A DNA stretch of 12,663 nt from a bacterium (GTDB lineage Bacteria > JAMCPX01): positions 1 through 12,663 of the forward strand of contig JAJYJX010000064.1 in assembly GCA_021789095.1 (NCBI GenBank). Reading direction: 5' to 3'. Position numbers and translations under genes: made by a program. The notes beneath the pieces were generated by a model. That model was not told where the DNA came from. It was given only the letters and a program-made list of their open reading frames with translations, and searched no databases. Shown in pieces: positions 4,369 to 12,663 of this stretch (its first letter is position 1; each line of letters starts with the position of its first letter).

Positions 4369-5169
4369 TCATTTGTTTGTGCAGATTGGCATGCCGATGT
4401 ATTTTTTTAAAGAGGACGAGAGTTTGTAGCTGTTTTCAATGGCCTTTTCCGTGAAAGCCTTTGCCAGCCTTACGGACTCGAGCTTGTCGTACCCCTTGAT
4501 GAGGAAAGACGTTATGGCAGAGGACATGATGCAGCCTGTCCCATGGACATCTTTATCTATGACCCTGCCTTTGAGAAAGGCATGCTGTTTCCTGTCCATG
4601 TACAGGTCAAGCCCTTTTTGTCCGAAATGACCGCCCTTGATGACCACTGCACCAGCACCGGTGTCTAAAAAATATTGCGCTGAACGGATCATGTCGTCCT
4701 TATTTTGTATGCTTATGCCGGATAGTGCGGATACCTCTTGCACATTCGGTGTTATGATTGTGCACAGGGGGAATAATGAACGCAAGGCATTCCTGGCATT
4801 GCGCTTCAAAAGTGGTGCACCGCTTGATGACAGCAGTACGGGGTCAAGCACTATATTTCTTAGCCTGTATCTCTTTATTGTTTGTATGACCAGCCTTATT
4901 GTTTCTGCGCTGTACAGCATGCCTATCTTTACGCCGTTCACAGCGCTGTAATCAAGTATGATACCAAGCTGTTCCCTGACCGTGGAAATTTTTACGCCTG
5001 CCGTTTGCTTTACGACATCTGTATTCTCAACGACAATGGCGGAAGGTACTGCGCAGGCATGGACGCCGATTGCCGAGAAAACCTTTATGTCCATAAGCAG
5101 TCCCGCCCCTGCGGAAGGATCAAGCCCTGCCAGTATCAAGCCTTTTTTGTCCGGGTGTTCTGCGGTCAT
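4369..5169 (-). CDS. thiD: Hydroxymethylpyrimidine/phosphomethylpyrimidine kinase ThiD
   Basis: This 266-residue cytoplasmic kinase phosphorylates 4-amino-5-hydroxymethyl-2-methylpyrimidine and then its monophosphate, giving the pyrimidine diphosphate used for thiamin phosphate synthesis. Ribokinase-fold family signatures are clear: an N-terminal substrate loop AGLDPSAGAGLLMDIKVFSA from about residue 14 (most ThiD proteins read AGSDxSGGAG), DPVLLSSSG at 109-117, TPN at 140-142, KGGH at 178-181, and the anion-hole motif HGTGC at 209-213. Length is normal (about 260-270) and the gene looks intact, ending in a Lys-rich tail. The ATG overlaps the stop of the upstream regulator gene by 4 bp (ATGA), which indicates translational coupling. 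Only a weak A-rich ribosome site precedes it. No other thi gene is in the window. A single-function kinase for pyrimidine salvage is possible, but the ThiD assignment is strong. Confidence 0.92.
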   Translation of the reverse strand: MTAEHPDKKGLILAGLDPSAGAGLLMDIKVFSAIGVHACAVPSAIVVENTDVVKQTAGVKISTVREQLGIILDYSAVNGVKIGMLYSAETIRLVIQTIKRYRLRNIVLDPVLLSSSGAPLLKRNARNALRSLFPLCTIITPNVQEVSALSGISIQNKDDMIRSAQYFLDTGAGAVVIKGGHFGQKGLDLYMDRKQHAFLKGRVIDKDVHGTGCIMSSAITSFLIKGYDKLESVRLAKAFTEKAIENSYKLSSSLKKYIGMPICTNK

Positions 5170-5852
5170 TGTTTCTTTATGCCAAGCTGTGTCATCTTTG
5201 TTTTGAACGTATTGCGATTTATCCCCAGCATCATGGACGCTTTTACCTGATTATTTTTTGAGAATTTCAGGGCTGTTTCTATAAACGATTTTTCCACGAT
5301 AGGCATGACAAGCTGGTAAAGGTTCGTAATGCCCCTCTGTGAAGGTTTCGAAAGCAGCATCGACAACTTCTTCTTTATCAATTCGCCGAGTCCGAGGTCC
5401 TCTATGTCATTATCAGAAGCCTGGTGGTCTGTATCTTTATGCCCTGCACTTTCAGAGGCCGATTGCAGGTTTAATTCCCTGTATAACTTGATTACATGGA
5501 TCGCCCTTCCGAGGGATGCCGCCGTTGTCAACGGCTTGAGCGGTTTCTGCAGTACTTCATACATGCCGTTATTCAAAAGTTTTGTGTAGATGACGTTCTT
5601 GTTTCTCGGTATGATACCTATGATGATGATGTCCTGTTTTATCCTTGCTATCCTGCCTATTGTTTCCAGCGTGTCCATGCCGAATCCGCTCATATCAATG
5701 CAGATAAGCTTATAGGCCTTTTTGTGCACGAGCTCAAGCGCTGATTCGTATGTTCTGACAGAACGTGAATTCAGGCCGATCTTTTTTATTGTTTTTAACA
5801 GGACCGCCTGCGGTTCATTTTTTGAAAGTATAAGTGCTTTTATCCTATACAC
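5166..5852 (-). CDS. Degenerate receiver plus Fis-type DNA-binding regulator
   Basis: This 228-residue protein has two parts. Residues 1-125 resemble a response-regulator receiver: the phosphoacceptor position Asp53 sits in CIDMSG and Lys103 in LQKPL, but the N-terminal acidic pair is replaced by SKNE (10-13) and the usual Thr/Ser after strand four is missing, so phosphorylation is doubtful. A polar linker (about 130-153) leads to a C-terminal Fis domain (about 158-228) with LYQLV at 178-182, VE at 186-187, and helix-turn-helix residues NNQVKASMMLGINRNTF at 200-216. By eye this aligns without gaps over almost the whole length of E. coli Fis, including the helix before LYELV. There is no AAA+ domain, so it is not an NtrC-type activator; RegA/ActR-type two-domain regulators are the nearest known layout. 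It starts with GTG inside the 3' end of dusB (8-bp overlap), with GGAGG six bases upstream. It is coupled to thiD downstream. Confidence 0.85.
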   Translation of the reverse strand: MYRIKALILSKNEPQAVLLKTIKKIGLNSRSVRTYESALELVHKKAYKLICIDMSGFGMDTLETIGRIARIKQDIIIIGIIPRNKNVIYTKLLNNGMYEVLQKPLKPLTTAASLGRAIHVIKLYRELNLQSASESAGHKDTDHQASDNDIEDLGLGELIKKKLSMLLSKPSQRGITNLYQLVMPIVEKSFIETALKFSKNNQVKASMMLGINRNTFKTKMTQLGIKKQ

Positions 5853-6849
5853 GATCCACCTCCATTAAGTAATCGAAGTATCCGTTTATAAGTTTTATCA
5901 GCGGTTCAAGTTTGTCAATTATTACGGCTTTTGCCCTGAAGTCGGAACTATGCCTTGCATGGAGCAGGGGAGAAGCGGGCCCGCCCCTGGAGTAATGCAC
6001 AAGGTGCTTCCTGAACAGCTTTACGCCCTTTGTTTCACCGTAGAACTCAACCATAAAATGAAGATGGTTAAGCACGGTCTCCCTTATGGAGGGTAACGAC
6101 GGCAGTACAAATCCGCGATCTTGCATATAATCAATGATCATGCCGAATATCCATGGCGCACCGAGTGCGCCCCTGCCCACCATTACACCGGCACATCCGG
6201 ATGCCGCCATCATGTGCTTTGCATCTTGCGGCGCTGTTATGTCCCCGTTGCCTATGACCGGGACTTTTGAACGACGCACTGCCTCAATCAGGCTCTGCAT
6301 ATCAATGCCCTTTTTAAAACCCATTGCTCTGGTCCTCAGGTGTATGGCTATTGCATCCACTCCCTGTTCGTTGGCAATATCGACGATCTGGAGTATATTT
6401 TTGGAATCCTCGTCCCATCCCGTCCTTGCTTTTATCGTGAAGGGGATGGCCAGGGCTTTTCTCATGGCGGCCGCAATCTCCCTTACAAGCTCCGGTTTTT
6501 TTAAAAGTGCGGCCCCTGCACCATTGCTTACGACGTTGTGTGCAGGGCATCCGAGATTGAGATCAACGATATCGGCACCTGCATCCATTGCCATGCCTGC
6601 CGCTTCTGCAAGGATACCTGCGTTCTTGCCGAGCAATTGCACGGTGACGGGTTTTTCTTCAGGAGAATATTTCATAAGCATTAAGGTTTTTTTGTTCTTA
6701 TGCACGAGGGCGTCTGCGCTTATAAGCTCCGTATAAACAAGACCTGCGCCGGAGCCAGTAACCATTCTCCTGAACGGGCTGTCAGTATACCCTGCAATGG
6801 GTGCCATTACATAAGGCTGTTTAATCTGTATATTTCCAATCCTGAGCAT
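5845..6849 (-). CDS. dusB: tRNA-dihydrouridine synthase, DusB/NifR3 type
   Basis: This 334-residue flavoenzyme reduces uridines in the tRNA D-loop to dihydrouridine using FMN and NADPH. The TIM-barrel family motifs are present in order: APIAGYTDSPFR at 16-27, TELISADAL at 40-48, QLLG at 71-74, the DLNLGCP segment with catalytic Cys101, Lys140 and RTGW at 142-145, IHLRTR with His170, NGDI at 201-204, and the FMN phosphate-binding GRGALG at 225-230. Length matches the family (about 320-340). The residue after GCPAHNVV is Ser where many members have Lys or Arg, a minor difference. The ATG follows a poor ribosome site. It is the first gene of a tight operon; its last codons contain the GGAGG that serves the regulator gene. 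A GC-rich double hairpin lies within 75 bases of its start and may be part of its leader mRNA. Confidence 0.95.
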   Translation of the reverse strand: MLRIGNIQIKQPYVMAPIAGYTDSPFRRMVTGSGAGLVYTELISADALVHKNKKTLMLMKYSPEEKPVTVQLLGKNAGILAEAAGMAMDAGADIVDLNLGCPAHNVVSNGAGAALLKKPELVREIAAAMRKALAIPFTIKARTGWDEDSKNILQIVDIANEQGVDAIAIHLRTRAMGFKKGIDMQSLIEAVRRSKVPVIGNGDITAPQDAKHMMAASGCAGVMVGRGALGAPWIFGMIIDYMQDRGFVLPSLPSIRETVLNHLHFMVEFYGETKGVKLFRKHLVHYSRGGPASPLLHARHSSDFRAKAVIIDKLEPLIKLINGYFDYLMEVDRV

Positions 6850-6979: not shown

Positions 6980-7006
6980 TCAATACAACCATTATGATTG
7001 TATTGA
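6980..7006. promoter_or_regulatory. 27-bp dyad, probable operator
   Basis: Arms TCAATACAA (6980-6988) and TTGTATTGA (6998-7006) are perfect 9-bp inverted repeats, and the centre adds CAT/ATG (6990-6992 and 6994-6996) around T6993. Only positions 6989 and 6997 break the symmetry, so 24 of 26 flanking bases are paired. The size and two-fold symmetry are typical of a dimeric regulator's operator. Its right arm overlaps a plus-strand TTGTAT, and its left arm holds the -35 of a possible minus-strand dusB promoter, so it could affect either operon. The binding protein is unknown. Confidence 0.5.
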
Positions 7007-7146: not shown

Positions 7147-7176
7147 CCGGCATGGCCGGTATAAACATCAAACAAA

Positions 7177-7181
7177 AGGAG
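7177..7181 (+). promoter_or_regulatory. Ribosome-binding site fixing the porin start at 7188
   Basis: AGGAG lies six bases before the ATG at 7188. An in-frame ATG at 7152 has no such site and would put a polar 12-residue extension (MAGINIKQKEYK) ahead of an otherwise classic signal peptide. Confidence 0.8.
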
Positions 7182-7187
7182 TATAAA

Positions 7188-8507
7188 ATGCAAAAGAAGC
7201 TCACGATTGTCAGTTTGATTATATTGTTCTTTCTTAAAGGAAATGCGCGGGCAAGCGTTTTTGACACCTTTGGCGTTGATTCACAGGGCATAGCCATGGG
7301 TAACGCAAGGACGGCGTCGGCCACCGACTGGACTGCGACTTACTATAACCCGGCAGGAATAACTCAGCAAAAGAAAACACTGGGGGCGAGTTTTATGTTT
7401 ATATGGAATCATCTTGACGTGAAGCCCTTCCCGGGCAGTACAGGGCTCGAGAACAAGGACAGCTCCAATATACAGGGGTTATCTCTGGGCTTAACATACG
7501 ATTTCGGTGTGGACATTTTCAGAGTAGGCTTAGGCCTGTACCTGCCGCTCAATGATGTTCAGGAACAGATAACGCATTGGGCGGATGAGAGAGAGGCGTT
7601 CTTTACAAACAAATTGTATTTCGAGATATACGAAAACAGGACGGAACATCAGATAATACTGCCAACAGTAGCTCTTAAGGTGCTTCCCTATCTGTCTATA
7701 GGCGGGGGGGTGTCTTTGTTCATACGCTCAATAACTTATTCGAATGTTTACCTGCCCAATGTGCTGAATCAGAGTGATGTATTCATTAATATTAATAACG
7801 TTCAGAAGTATACCTATGTGCCGAATTTAGGAGTACTTTTCCATCCCTCGAACGATTTCAAGATAGGTATTTCTTACATGGGGCAGGACAGCTTTCCCAT
7901 AGAGGGTGCGAGTTACGTTGATGTACCGCAGCTCGGCCAGCATTTTACCCAGACTATAGAACAGATAGTGTTTTATACGCCTGCACATATATCGGCGGGT
8001 ATCATGTACAAACCTACAAGCAGCGTCGAACTGAATGCCGATATTACATGGGTAGGGTGGTCGGGATATAAGGACAATCATAATGAGGTTCCGCAGACCT
8101 CATGGATAGATCCAAGTACAAACAGCCTGCAGCAGGGACAGGCGTGGAGCGATATTTATGTGCCGAGGATAGGCCTTAAATACCTTGCGGATTCATCATG
8201 GAGTTTTATGGCAGGATACTTTTATGAACCCAGCCCTGTGCCTCCTCAGATGCAGAGGAGTAATTACGTTGATAATGTCGCGAACGTGATTTCGGCAGGA
8301 AGCGGTTATAAGGTGCCTTACAGAGAGGGGAATATAAATTTTGTAATCCATGCCCAGGCGCATATACTCGGCGACAGAAAGACCTATAAAGAAATTGCCG
8401 TAGATGCGGATCCGAATACGCCGGGTATCCAGAACCCCGGCTATCCCGGCTATGAGAGCAAAGGCTACATTTTTGATACGGGGTTTGAGGTGTCCTATGG
8501 ATTCTAA
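7188..8507 (+). CDS. FadL/OmpP1/TodX-family outer membrane transport protein
   Basis: This 439-residue outer-membrane beta-barrel probably carries long-chain fatty acids or other hydrophobic compounds into the cell. A signal peptide is clear: MQKK, a hydrophobic core (TIVSLIILFFL), then GNARA with likely cleavage after Ala. The mature N terminus has the family pattern of a G-IAMGNA-TA-A segment followed by YYNPAGI, equivalent to the NPAA/NPAGL plug motif of FadL. The rest is rich in alternating strands and Tyr/Trp, and the chain ends in FEVSYGF, whose terminal Phe is the usual signal for barrel insertion by BamA. Length (430-450) is normal. The start at 7188 is chosen over 7152 for its ribosome site. 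It overlaps the next gene by 11 bp and lies upstream of beta-oxidation genes, which supports a fatty acid substrate; aromatic hydrocarbons (TodX-like) remain possible. Confidence 0.88.
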   Translation: MQKKLTIVSLIILFFLKGNARASVFDTFGVDSQGIAMGNARTASATDWTATYYNPAGITQQKKTLGASFMFIWNHLDVKPFPGSTGLENKDSSNIQGLSLGLTYDFGVDIFRVGLGLYLPLNDVQEQITHWADEREAFFTNKLYFEIYENRTEHQIILPTVALKVLPYLSIGGGVSLFIRSITYSNVYLPNVLNQSDVFININNVQKYTYVPNLGVLFHPSNDFKIGISYMGQDSFPIEGASYVDVPQLGQHFTQTIEQIVFYTPAHISAGIMYKPTSSVELNADITWVGWSGYKDNHNEVPQTSWIDPSTNSLQQGQAWSDIYVPRIGLKYLADSSWSFMAGYFYEPSPVPPQMQRSNYVDNVANVISAGSGYKVPYREGNINFVIHAQAHILGDRKTYKEIAVDADPNTPGIQNPGYPGYESKGYIFDTGFEVSYGF

Positions 8508-9162
8508 GGTTCCCTCTGAGGATGAGGTATCTTCAAAACTGACAGAGGCCTATCTCAGATACGAGAAATTCATAATCCCGGTTTTTCTTGTAACTTTCCT
8601 TTCGTTCGGATTTTATTATGTTGACTGGCACAATCATCTCCTGTGGAAAGAGGGCATGAAATTTTATGAACTGGATACGGGTATTGATCGTGCAATACCT
8701 TTTGTCCCATGGTTTATATGGCTGTACCTGCTTTATTATCCTTTTTGCTTTACCCCCATAGTTTTGTTGAATAACAGAGACACGTTCAGAAGGATAGCAG
8801 CCGGATTCCTCATGGAATTCGTCCTGGCTTTTATAGTATTCCTGACATTCCCTGTGAAAATGATAAGACCGGAGGTGACTGCGTCTTCTTTAAGCACAAA
8901 GGCAGTTGCCTTGCTTTACAGCATTGATCCCGGATTCAATGTATTCCCGAGCCTCCATGTTGCAAATTCGCTGTTCGTTGCTCTGATATTTTACAGGTAC
9001 AGCAAACCTGTCGGCATCCTGTTCATGCTGATAGCCGTTTTAATCTCGATATCCACACTTTATGTAAAACAACACTACCTGTTTGATATCGTTACAGGGG
9101 CGCTTGACACGCTTATGGTTTACCCGGTGGTCTTCAGGGGCCACAGGCCCGTAAAAGCATAA
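8497..9162 (+). CDS. PAP2-superfamily membrane phosphatase or transferase
   Basis: This 221-residue integral membrane protein has about six hydrophobic segments and the three PAP2 active-site motifs: K121-MI-R124-P125, PSLHV with Pro151, Ser152 and His154, and YVKQHYLFD with catalytic His193 and Asp197. The third motif has Lys-Gln before His where classic phosphatidate phosphatases have Arg; this version is typical of the PAP2_3 group, which includes inositol phosphorylceramide synthase-like proteins. Expected activity is removal or transfer of a phosphate group on a membrane lipid, with the active site probably facing the periplasm; the substrate cannot be named. The start at 8497 has GAGG about six bases upstream and overlaps the porin 3' end by 11 bp, so translation is probably coupled. 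An in-frame start at 8404 would add 31 Arg-rich residues encoded inside the porin gene and is unlikely. Confidence 0.82.
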   Translation: MDSKVPSEDEVSSKLTEAYLRYEKFIIPVFLVTFLSFGFYYVDWHNHLLWKEGMKFYELDTGIDRAIPFVPWFIWLYLLYYPFCFTPIVLLNNRDTFRRIAAGFLMEFVLAFIVFLTFPVKMIRPEVTASSLSTKAVALLYSIDPGFNVFPSLHVANSLFVALIFYRYSKPVGILFMLIAVLISISTLYVKQHYLFDIVTGALDTLMVYPVVFRGHRPVKA

Positions 9163-9227
9163 AACCCCGCTGGAAAGAGCAAGCCTTTAACCCTGACAGG
9201 GGTGAGAACAATCTTTAAAAAAATGTC

Positions 9228-9258
9228 TTGACTTGTATACAATCTTGTGTCATTTAAT
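9228..9258 (+). promoter_or_regulatory. Candidate fadA promoter
   Basis: TTGACT (9228-9233) and TTTAAT (9253-9258) resemble sigma-70 boxes, with a long 19-bp spacer. The -10 coincides with the left arm of the FadR-like operator, which is where a repressor would block RNA polymerase. A perfect 10-bp palindrome, TTGTATACAA (9233-9242), sits in the spacer. The boxes are inferred by eye. Confidence 0.35.
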
Positions 9259-9280
9259 GAATGAACAATCATTCATTAAA
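9253..9280. promoter_or_regulatory. FadR-like (TetR-type) operator upstream of fadA
   Basis: TTTAATGAATGA (9253-9264) and TCATTCATTAAA (9269-9280) are perfect 12-bp inverted arms around ACAA. The core TGAATGA-N4-TCATTCA has the same arms and spacing as the operator of Bacillus subtilis FadR, the TetR-family repressor of beta-oxidation genes that releases DNA when it binds long-chain acyl-CoA. It lies 24 bases before the fadA start, overlapping the candidate -10. No TetR gene is in the window, so the regulator is predicted to lie elsewhere. Confidence 0.75.
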
Positions 9281-9303
9281 CTTTAAACATAAAGGAGGCA
9301 GCT

Positions 9304-10524
9304 ATGAAAACGAATGGCAGGGATGCCGTGATAGTATCAGCGGTGAGATTACCTATTGGAAGGGCCAAGAAAGGCTTTTTTGTTAAAACAAGACCTGATG
9401 ATATGTTTACCATGGCCATTAAAGTTGCTCTGAAAAGACTGCCTGCTTTTGATTACAAGCAGATAGAAGACGTCATATGCGGTTCGGCTTTTCCCGAGGC
9501 GGAAGAGGGCATGAATGTCTCAAGGGTTGCAAGCATCCTGGCAGGCCTGCCTATCGAAGTGCCTGCAACAACAATAAACAGGTTTTGCGGCTCTGCAATG
9601 ACCGCACTTCATAAAGCTACGTATGAAATAATGGGAGGGGCCGGAGATATATTTATTGTGGGCGGCACCGAGAGTATGTCGATGATACCAATGGCAAGCA
9701 ATAAACCAACACCGAATATAAAGTTTGTGCTGGACGGTTCTGCGCTTCCGAATGTATACATCCCAATGGGCGAAACAGCAGAGAACGTGATAGACCGGTA
9801 CGGCGACAAGTATAAGCTGACCAGGGAGAACCTTGATAAGTTCTCTTACAACTCTCATATGAAGGCCGTGAAGGCACAGGAGAGCGGCAAGTTTAAGGAG
9901 GAGATTGCCCCTGTTGTTCTTAACCCGCAGACAGGCGACATAGAGCTGTACGATGGCAAGAAAGTGCCTGATGGGTGGGTCGTTATCGATAAGGACGAGT
10001 GTCCAAGGGCAGATACAACCCTGGAGGCACTGGCAAAATTAAAACCGGTTTTCAGGGCAAAAGGCAGGGTTACAGCAGGTAATTCCTCCCCGGTTAACGA
10101 TGGCGCAAGCGTCATGGTTCTTATGGCTTCTTCAAAGGCAAAGGAACTTGGAATAAAGCCCCTGGCAAAGATAAGGGCAACAGCGGTAAGGGCGCTCGAG
10201 CCGGAGGTAATGGGACTCGGCCCTATATATTCGACAAAGCGCGTACTGGAGAGGGCAAAGATGAGTATCAAGGACATACAGCTTGCCGAGATAAATGAGG
10301 CTTTTGCATCCCAGTCAATAGCCAGCGTAGAAGAGCTGGGATTAAACCCCGATATTGTAAACGTAAACGGCGGGGCAATTGCACTCGGTCATCCGCTTGG
10401 TATATCCGGCGTAAGGATACTTACGACACTTCTTTATGAGATGATAAAAAGGGACCTGAATATCGGTCTTGGAACCATGTGCATCGGCGGGGGCCAGGGT
10501 ATAGCCACGATTATAGAACGGTAA
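9304..10524 (+). CDS. fadA: Acetyl-CoA acyltransferase (3-ketoacyl-CoA thiolase)
   Basis: This 406-residue cytoplasmic thiolase cleaves 3-ketoacyl-CoA with CoA to give acetyl-CoA and a shortened acyl-CoA, the last step of each beta-oxidation round. Active-site residues are complete: nucleophile Cys95 in NRFCGSAM, NEAFA at 331-335, His363 in GGAIALGHPLG, and Cys393 in MCIGGGQG. GGTESMS at 120-126 is also typical. Length (about 390-410) is normal. The NRFCGS motif and the adjacent FadN-type gene favour a degradative FadA over a biosynthetic acetoacetyl-CoA thiolase, although the reverse reaction is chemically possible. A strong ribosome site (AGGAGG) precedes the ATG. The gene is preceded by a FadR-like operator and followed after 19 bp by the dehydrogenase/hydratase gene, so the two form an operon. 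Confidence 0.93.
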   Translation: MKTNGRDAVIVSAVRLPIGRAKKGFFVKTRPDDMFTMAIKVALKRLPAFDYKQIEDVICGSAFPEAEEGMNVSRVASILAGLPIEVPATTINRFCGSAMTALHKATYEIMGGAGDIFIVGGTESMSMIPMASNKPTPNIKFVLDGSALPNVYIPMGETAENVIDRYGDKYKLTRENLDKFSYNSHMKAVKAQESGKFKEEIAPVVLNPQTGDIELYDGKKVPDGWVVIDKDECPRADTTLEALAKLKPVFRAKGRVTAGNSSPVNDGASVMVLMASSKAKELGIKPLAKIRATAVRALEPEVMGLGPIYSTKRVLERAKMSIKDIQLAEINEAFASQSIASVEELGLNPDIVNVNGGAIALGHPLGISGVRILTTLLYEMIKRDLNIGLGTMCIGGGQGIATIIER

Positions 10525-10543
10525 GGTTACAGGAGGAATATTT

Positions 10544-12663
10544 ATGAACTATCAGATAAAACGAGTAACGATAATAGGTTCGGGTGTAATGGGGGCAGGA
10601 ATAGCGGCCCATCTTGCGAATGCCGGTATACCTTCTTACCTGCTTGATATAGTGCCGAAAGAGCTTACCGATGATGAGAAGAAAGCAGGACTAAGCTTAA
10701 AGGATCCCAGGGTAAGAAACAGGCTGGCTATCGCAGGTATTGAGCATATTAAGAAATCAAAGCCGGCTTTAATATATTCACAAAAGGATGTTTCTTTTAT
10801 TACTCCCGGCAATATGGAAGACAACCTTGATCTTATAGGCCAGTCTGACTGGATCATAGAGGTTGTTACGGAAAGACTGGATATCAAGAAGAAAGTTTTT
10901 GAGCAGGTGGACAAGTACCGGAAGCAGGGGTCCATAGTAAGCTCAAACACGTCCGGCATAAAGCTCAAGGATATGGCGGACGGAAGGAGCAAGGATTTCA
11001 GGGAACATTTCATGATCACCCACTTCTTCAACCCTGTGAGGTACATGAAGCTGCTCGAGTTTATTACCGGAGATGAAACAAAACCGGAGATAGTTTCGTT
11101 CATGCAGGAATTTTCCGAAAATGTGCTGGGAAAAGGCATTGTATACGGCAAGGACACTCCGAATTTTATAGCCAACAGGGTCGGTACGTTCTCTATGCTC
11201 GATACAATAAAGACAATGATTGAGGACGGCTATGCAATAGACGAGGTTGATGCGATAGTAGGCAGGCCTATGGGCAGACCGGGCAGTGCGGCATTCGGTA
11301 CGGCAGATCTTGTCGGCCTTGATACCTTGGTGCATGTTACAGACAATGTATATGAAAATACGCCGAATGATGAAAAAAGGGAGGTTTTCAAGGTTCCTGA
11401 GTTTATAAACAAGATGGTCAAGCAGGGCTGGCTTGGCGATAAATCCGGTCAGGGGTTTTATAAGAAGATGAAGGATGAAACAGGCAGAAAGAAGTTAGTG
11501 CTGGATTACAACACCATGGAGTACAAGGACTCGCAGAAGTACAAATATGAGTCCCTTGAGATGGCAAAGAATGCAGAGACTCCCGAGGAAAAATCAAGAG
11601 TACTTATTTCAAGTGACGACAGGGGAGCCAAGTTTGCATGGAAGGTAACAAGGGACACCCTTATATACGCACTCAACAGGATTCCGGAGATCGCAGATGA
11701 TATTGTCAGCATCGATAACGCACTGAAATGGGGGTATAACTGGTCTATCGGACCGTTTGAGGGCTGGGACGCAATAGGCGTGGCAAGCTCTATAGAAAGG
11801 ATGAAAAAAGAAGGTCTAAAGGTACCCGACACGGTCAACAGGGTTATAGAGAAAGGTTATGGACGGTTTTATCTTGATATCAAAGGAGACAAGTATTATT
11901 TCGACCTGCAGACAAATACGTATAATCCCATTGTAAGAAGACCCAATGTCATATCGCTCGATAGCTGCAAGAAGAAAGGCATGGTCCTCAAAGAGAACGG
12001 CAGTGCAAGGCTGATCGATATAGGTGACGGGGTCATATGCGTGGAGTTCAATTCAAAGATGAACGCCATTGATGACGACATAATAAATATGCTGAACAGC
12101 GGTGTGGATATGCTTGAGTCGCGGCACGATATAGCGGGTATGGTTCTTGCCAACGAGGGAGAGACATTCAGTGCGGGTGCCAATATATTCCTTGTTCTTA
12201 TGGCGGCACAGAACAAACAATGGAAAGAGCTTGAGAAATCGATAGACGGCCTGCATGGGGCCAACATGAGAATGAAGTATGCGTCCAAACCGATTGTTTC
12301 GGCTCCGTTTAACATGGCGCTTGGAGGCGGTTGCGAGGTCTGCATGCATACGCACAAGATAAGGGCACATGCGGAACTTTACATGGGACTTGTTGAGCTT
12401 GGCGTTGGCGTAATACCTGCCGGCGGCGGCACAAAAGAAGTTTACCTCAGGGCGCTCAGCAATAACGTTGTGAAGCCCGATCCAATGAAAGCTGCACTGC
12501 ACACATTTGAGACGATAGGGATGGCAAAGGTATCCATGAGTGCAAAAGAAGCAATTGAGCTTTACGGGTTCCTGAGTCCTGCGGATCAGATTACGCTGAA
12601 CAAGGAGAACCTGATCTATGATGCGAAACAGACAGTCCTAGCAATGGTAAAAGAAGGATTCAA
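10544..12663 (+). CDS. fadN: 3-hydroxyacyl-CoA dehydrogenase/enoyl-CoA hydratase fusion, FadN type (3' end off window)
   Basis: The frame is open from ATG 10544 to the window edge: 706 codons of an expected 790-800. The enzyme would carry out the two middle beta-oxidation steps, hydrating 2-enoyl-CoA and oxidising 3-hydroxyacyl-CoA with NAD+. The dehydrogenase half comes first: Rossmann motif GSGVMG at 12-17, NTSG near 140, catalytic His160 in HFFNP and Glu172, then C-terminal helical domains with GRPMGRPG and a second repeat around RDTLIYALNRI. The crotonase domain starts near 487, with an oxyanion segment FSAGANIF, Glu598 in GGGCEV and Glu618 in GLVELGVG; their 20-residue spacing matches the two catalytic Glu of crotonase, so both active sites look intact. 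This order is that of Bacillus FadN and the reverse of E. coli FadB. A strong AGGAGGA site lies six bases upstream. It is probably co-transcribed with fadA. Confidence 0.93.
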   Translation, partial: MNYQIKRVTIIGSGVMGAGIAAHLANAGIPSYLLDIVPKELTDDEKKAGLSLKDPRVRNRLAIAGIEHIKKSKPALIYSQKDVSFITPGNMEDNLDLIGQSDWIIEVVTERLDIKKKVFEQVDKYRKQGSIVSSNTSGIKLKDMADGRSKDFREHFMITHFFNPVRYMKLLEFITGDETKPEIVSFMQEFSENVLGKGIVYGKDTPNFIANRVGTFSMLDTIKTMIEDGYAIDEVDAIVGRPMGRPGSAAFGTADLVGLDTLVHVTDNVYENTPNDEKREVFKVPEFINKMVKQGWLGDKSGQGFYKKMKDETGRKKLVLDYNTMEYKDSQKYKYESLEMAKNAETPEEKSRVLISSDDRGAKFAWKVTRDTLIYALNRIPEIADDIVSIDNALKWGYNWSIGPFEGWDAIGVASSIERMKKEGLKVPDTVNRVIEKGYGRFYLDIKGDKYYFDLQTNTYNPIVRRPNVISLDSCKKKGMVLKENGSARLIDIGDGVICVEFNSKMNAIDDDIINMLNSGVDMLESRHDIAGMVLANEGETFSAGANIFLVLMAAQNKQWKELEKSIDGLHGANMRMKYASKPIVSAPFNMALGGGCEVCMHTHKIRAHAELYMGLVELGVGVIPAGGGTKEVYLRALSNNVVKPDPMKAALHTFETIGMAKVSMSAKEAIELYGFLSPADQITLNKENLIYDAKQTVLAMVKEGF

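Follow-up and report, generated by a model that had tools for sequence, protein, structure and literature searches.

In the 12,663-nucleotide stretch of bacterial DNA analysed here (the window), the gene following dusB encodes an N-terminal receiver and a C-terminal Fis-type domain, raising the question of where such a protein came from and how it works. A preliminary description had taken it either for an intermediate in the derivation of Fis from NtrC or for an independent product of the same gene neighbourhood. That Fis originated from NtrC was argued in 1998 on the grounds of sequence likeness and gene order (Morett & Bork; the proposal is cited in PMC7482072 and in PMC7962754).

The dusB, receiver-Fis and thiD cluster

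The cluster comprises three overlapping genes in the following order of transcription.

5845–6849, minus strand: dusB (tRNA-dihydrouridine synthase B, nifR3 family), 334 amino acids, first gene of the cluster; TIGR00737, Pfam Dus
5166–5852, minus strand: receiver-Fis gene, 228 amino acids, GTG start, second gene
4369–5169, minus strand: thiD (HMP/HMP-P kinase), 266 amino acids, third gene; TIGR00097

The receiver-Fis gene shares 8 bp with dusB and 4 bp with thiD; the former overlap and the gene coordinates, as first described, agreed with our check of the open reading frames (ORFs). DusB scored 311.5 bits against the TIGR00737 equivalog model (cut-off 293.3), with a Pfam Dus match of 7e-81, and ThiD 227.7 bits against TIGR00097 (cut-off 204.95). 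No kinase was found among the genes of the window, and ntrB is thus absent beside the receiver-Fis gene. The thiE gene of the source genome is located elsewhere, away from the dusB cluster. Rfam returned 0 matches in the window, and therefore no TPP riboswitch was found upstream of thiD. The genes at 7152–12661 resemble a fatty-acid uptake and beta-oxidation set on reading of the ORFs, with FadL and PAP2 assigned by Pfam.

7152–8507: FadL-type outer membrane protein (Pfam)
8404–9162: PAP2-family gene (Pfam)
9304–10524: thiolase-like gene (ORF reading)
10544–12661: 3-hydroxyacyl-CoA dehydrogenase/enoyl-CoA hydratase-like gene (ORF reading)

Upstream of dusB, one palindrome was identified.

6980–7006: perfect 9-bp inverted repeat, TCAATACAA-N9-TTGTATTGA, 27 bp

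An equally good palindrome occurred in 2.5% of shuffles. The repeat is unique in the genome at 0 mismatches, with one other site at 2 mismatches (G000:C197), and is not conserved upstream of dusB in the relatives. On the minus strand it is terminator-like and followed by a T-run, and it is a candidate for either an operator or a terminator-like leader element on that strand.

Besides the source genome, the search for relatives yielded eight members of its family and otherwise only genomes of the same domain. The order dusB, receiver-Fis, thiD was present in 7/9 family genomes from four genera, i.e. in 7/7 where the locus was found, including G004, whose contig holds just the last 95 DusB residues; the adjacency to dusB thus held in relatives. 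The two family genomes without the locus (80% and 84% complete) were also without dusB, and the order was not found in any other lineage sampled. A single-protein search of genome contigs returned no match, and the search with the family alignment succeeded. All seven receiver-Fis proteins were 226–228 amino acids long with an N-terminal receiver, those of the 6 relatives sharing 52–62% identity with that of the window. Where dS was estimable, dN/dS was about 0.1–0.2 in the receiver and about 0–0.1 in the Fis domain. Both domains are under purifying selection, which indicates that they are being kept for a function; together with the conserved gene order, the low ratios argue that the gene is neither a chance ORF nor a pseudogene.

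Domains of the receiver-Fis protein

The protein was divided into three parts.

5478–5852, minus strand: degenerate receiver, residues 1–125 (alignments and structure model)
5409–5477, minus strand: linker, residues 126–148 (dN/dS, family alignment)
5169–5408, minus strand: Fis domain, residues 149–228, helices A–D (gap-free alignment to E. coli Fis)

The alignment with Fis that had been made by eye was borne out, as residues 149–225 matched E. coli Fis 21–97 with 0 gaps (E-value 9e-9 with the single sequence), and the family profile matched E. coli Fis at 6e-11. The genome scan gave HTH_8 33.2 bits, and Pfam gave it 30.3 bits (cut-off 22). In a low-confidence full-length model (pLDDT 57), too weak for structural interpretation, the helices of the Fis domain are at residues 155–167, 178–197, 202–209 and 213–222. 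The top two NCBIfam models were NtrC with 54 bits, far below its cut-off of 558.6, and Fis with 50 bits, the Fis equivalog PRK00430 scoring 50.1 bits against a cut-off of 99. No Pfam match to a sigma-54 type AAA+ module (GAFTGA) was obtained in the protein, as the preliminary description had stated. The linker, which occupies the place of this module in NtrC, is under relaxed selection according to dN/dS in the comparison of relatives.

The Fis domain was separated from the 10 HTH_8 paralogues of the same genome by a tree split of 84/89, with one foreign NtrC-like row on the side of the paralogues; it falls with the NtrC/Fis types, away from the EBPs of its own genome. A second AAA-less Fis-type protein of this genome (L009:991–1626, G000:C30; 211 amino acids) has an EBP-type Fis domain.

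The receiver scored barely above the Pfam cut-off (30.5 vs 30.2). In comparison with the receivers of dusB-linked NtrCs, it has retained the phosphoacceptor D53 and K103, and has lost the acidic pair (K11 N12) and the switch Thr (I81). Across the family (n = 7), D53 was present in 6/7 members (Glu in one) and K103 in 7/7. The acidic pair was complete in 0/7, position 11 being acidic in 0/7 and position 12 in 2/7, and the switch Thr was replaced by Ile in all seven. A receiver-only model was obtained with pLDDT 90, and its best PDB matches were the receivers of NtrC1, NtrX, HupR and DctD, a resemblance that is partly built in, since the model's alignment included NtrC receivers. Judging from these residues, the phosphorylation chemistry has most probably been lost, which makes a classical two-component role unlikely, and the receiver is probably a folded, non-phosphorylatable dimerising or regulatory domain. 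Receivers of AAA-less receiver-Fis proteins elsewhere (L086, L087, L110, L111–113) were incomplete too: a degenerate or truncated receiver with Fis and without AAA+ was present in seven other families, the complete phosphorylation set in none.

The protein is accordingly filed neither as Fis, on account of its size and the cut-off, nor as NtrC, on account of the AAA+ module and the receiver chemistry. Like the window gene, enterobacterial fis lies directly behind dusB, and its product has no AAA+ module and aligns gap-free over residues 21–97; Fis is, however, a stand-alone protein of about 98 residues, whereas the window protein adds a 125-residue degenerate receiver and a linker, and its gene, unlike enterobacterial fis, is followed by thiD. 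With NtrC (NR(I), glnG; dusB/nifR3-ntrB-ntrC), it shares the N-terminal receiver, the C-terminal NtrC-type Fis domain and dusB upstream, but it is without the sigma-54 AAA+ module, its receiver chemistry is lost and there is no adjacent ntrB.

dusB, ntrC and thi genes in other phyla

In 100 dusB loci of other families, drawn by dusB score alone (three ran off a contig edge), dusB-ntrB-ntrC was identified four times (L150, L163, L181, L201), and a receiver-Fis gene behind dusB in none. Only two of these loci had thiE or thiD within about 4.5 kb of dusB (L181, through ntrC, and L196); elsewhere, thi genes seldom lie close to dusB.

Through L181 the phylum of G139 was reached, of which 46 genomes were available. 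In L227 (identities by Pfam and NCBIfam) and L234, the genes dusB-ntrB-ntrC-thiE-thiD formed one run, and L231 and L181 had dusB-ntrB-ntrC-thiE. The ntrC gene of this phylum was found in grades, from full NtrC, mostly with GAFTGA, through AAA+-Fis and lid-Fis to bare Fis.

339–377 amino acids: REC-less AAA+-Fis with Walker A and no GAFTGA, in 5 genomes (L254, L257, L271, L274, L092)
About 165–175 amino acids (226–238 from the longest start): AAA+ lid and Fis, in 8 genomes (L256, L262, L264–L266, L268, L270, L273)
About 110 amino acids: bare Fis, in 2 genomes (L252, L258)

As an example of the second form, L264 aligned to positions 310–463 of the NtrC model, i.e. lid and Fis. Directly downstream of 11/15 reduced ntrC forms was thiE or thiD, and in two more thiE was about 0.7 kb downstream. 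In the Fis-domain tree, the lid-Fis form of L268 grouped with full-length NtrC (100/92), away from the other lid-Fis forms, and on this placement ntrC was probably reduced at least twice in the phylum.

Stand-alone Fis genes behind dusB were present in six other genomes (L094, L103–L106, L115), which were fetched for their Fis genes. One of them, L106, of another phylum, had dusB-Fis-thiE, and L086, also of another phylum, had a degenerate receiver-Fis gene followed by thiE and thiD. Tiny Fis proteins of 92–124 amino acids, with the receiver reduced to its first strand and helix, were observed at L088:5355–5729, L091:4871–5245 and L095:5054–5332. In L088 and L095 the neighbouring genes encode a glutamate synthase large subunit and a small amidotransferase-like protein, and type III glutamine synthetase and P-II are encoded at the L095 locus as well; these tiny proteins seem to be NtrC remnants that have stayed within a nitrogen-assimilation cluster. 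An NtrC-like protein of 'Nitrospirae' (L079:4933–6249, L080:1164–2498), whose receiver is degenerate and whose AAA+ module lacks GAFTGA, is another erosion stage, its gene not being beside dusB or thi genes.

Two Fis-domain trees were built on 72–73 columns, and in both the window family was apart from E. coli-type (gamma-proteobacterial) Fis. Its sister was a stand-alone Fis of 118 amino acids from another phylum (99/87), and it was not beside the NtrCs of dusB-ntrB-ntrC-thiE loci. The gene of this sister (L085:4939–5295) sits between dnaB-like and queE-like genes, and stand-alone Fis proteins, mostly of 100–130 amino acids, were present in 44/144 genomes of the phylum of G275, that of L085 among them. 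The dusB-Fis pairs occupied four separate places in the tree. In the DusB tree, the DusB of the window grouped weakly (81) with ntrBC-linked DusBs, and the lowest E-value outside the family was obtained with the DusB of the dusB-ntrB-ntrC-thiE locus L231, with L126 at equal bits. In the phylum of the window, sampled through one family, no dusB-ntrC intermediate was seen.

Origin and function

The five-gene operon and the erosion series in another phylum strongly suggest an NtrC origin of the receiver-Fis protein. The window cluster has the outermost genes of this operon at its two ends, and between them a regulator with the terminal domains of NtrC, making descent by loss the most economical account. 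We infer that the ancestral operon would have been dusB-ntrB-ntrC-thiE-thiD and that the receiver-Fis gene would be what remains of its ntrC; the lineage of the window would have lost ntrB and the thiE copy at this locus, and NtrC would have lost its AAA+ module, while the receiver would have been retained as a fold and the NtrC-type Fis domain left intact. We read the receiver-Fis gene as an ntrC that was gutted separately from those of the G139 phylum. Further points in favour of this account are the dusB-Fis-thiE and receiver-Fis-thiE-thiD orders of other phyla, the rarity of thi genes close to dusB, the DusB match to L231, the place of the Fis domain with the NtrC/Fis types and the NtrC1/NtrX-like receiver fold. 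Against it speak the Fis-domain tree with a stand-alone Fis as sister, the weak grouping in the DusB tree, the absence of a dusB-ntrC intermediate from the one family sampled in the phylum of the window, the location of thiE elsewhere, the partly built-in likeness of the receiver model and the unconserved palindrome.

By analogy with known systems, the protein most likely acts independently of sigma-54 and of phosphorylation, binding and bending DNA as a Fis-like dimer, and it probably represses or tunes its own dusB promoter. Sinorhizobium NtrC binds PdusB and represses the dusB-ntrBC operon (PMC10746234), and enteric Fis represses dusB-fis (PMC7482072). In Caulobacter, an NtrC without GAFTGA binds a Fis-related motif and acts at sigma-70 promoters (PMC10274813). 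The GAFTGA-less NtrC of Caulobacter and Rhodobacter is comparable to the window protein in its departure from sigma-54, but it keeps the AAA+ module and uses a phosphorylated Asp, unlike the window protein. Descent from the five-gene operon, dimerisation, DNA bending and autoregulation are all deduced from such comparisons; that a gutted ntrC became a phosphorylation-independent, Fis-like binder tuning its own dusB promoter is, taken jointly, the reading we consider reasonably probable. In short, the protein probably works like Fis and descends from NtrC.

The reverse course, in which a stand-alone Fis behind dusB was fused to a receiver, is unlikely in our view, even though the nearest Fis domain is the 118-residue stand-alone protein and several other lineages have stand-alone Fis behind dusB. 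The order of receiver and Fis domain along the protein is that of NtrC, the thiD flank is the same as in the ntrC operon, and incomplete receivers before an AAA-less Fis in seven other families are the pattern expected from loss.

The proteins RegA, ActR and PrrA combine a receiver with a Fis-type helix-turn-helix without AAA+, as does the window protein, and differ from it in gene neighbourhood. A working regulator of this kind, phosphorylated by an orphan kinase, would agree with the intact receiver fold and the prevalence of D53 and K103, but we regard it as improbable, given that no member has both residues of the acidic pair, all have Ile instead of the switch Thr, one carries Glu in place of D53, and the gene has no kinase next to it. 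Among solved structures, moreover, the family profile matched no PrrA/RegA chain up to an E-value of 10, compared with 6e-11 for Fis, so that assignment of the domain to the NtrC/Fis type rather than to RegA/ActR was upheld.

That the protein is a direct intermediate in the descent of gamma-proteobacterial Fis is very improbable, despite the gene order shared with E. coli dusB-fis, the long gap-free alignment and a forced clade of the window family with gamma Fis that was not rejected (AU p = 0.36, 72 columns), since neither tree joins the two, and the four places of dusB-Fis, with lid-Fis L268 nested in full-length NtrCs, show that reductions recur. Of the two origins first proposed, the direct intermediate is thus unsupported, and independent emergence from the same neighbourhood is the better fit.

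Descent of the window protein from a gutted ntrC leads to a wider proposal, for and against which we give about equal weight, that repeated stepwise gutting of ntrC in dusB-ntrB-ntrC-thiE-thiD operons yields Fis-like proteins, E. coli Fis being one outcome and not a single transfer. If this is true, one phylum keeps nearly every stage, and the window family keeps the stage of pseudo-receiver and Fis. The derivation of Fis from NtrC is already known as an idea, and in the open-access literature, searched for dusB, ntrB and thiE together and for truncated NtrC or receiver-Fis, we found none of the present forms described; a receiver-Fis gene following dusB, the operon of five genes, the graded erosion series and the thi linkage appear to be new. 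With living intermediates at this locus, in bacteria far from Escherichia, the 1998 idea is now open to checking. It becomes testable step by step, in the order in which sigma-54 contact, ATPase and phosphorylation were lost, in the survival of dusB autoregulation, and in the reason why thiamine genes travel along.
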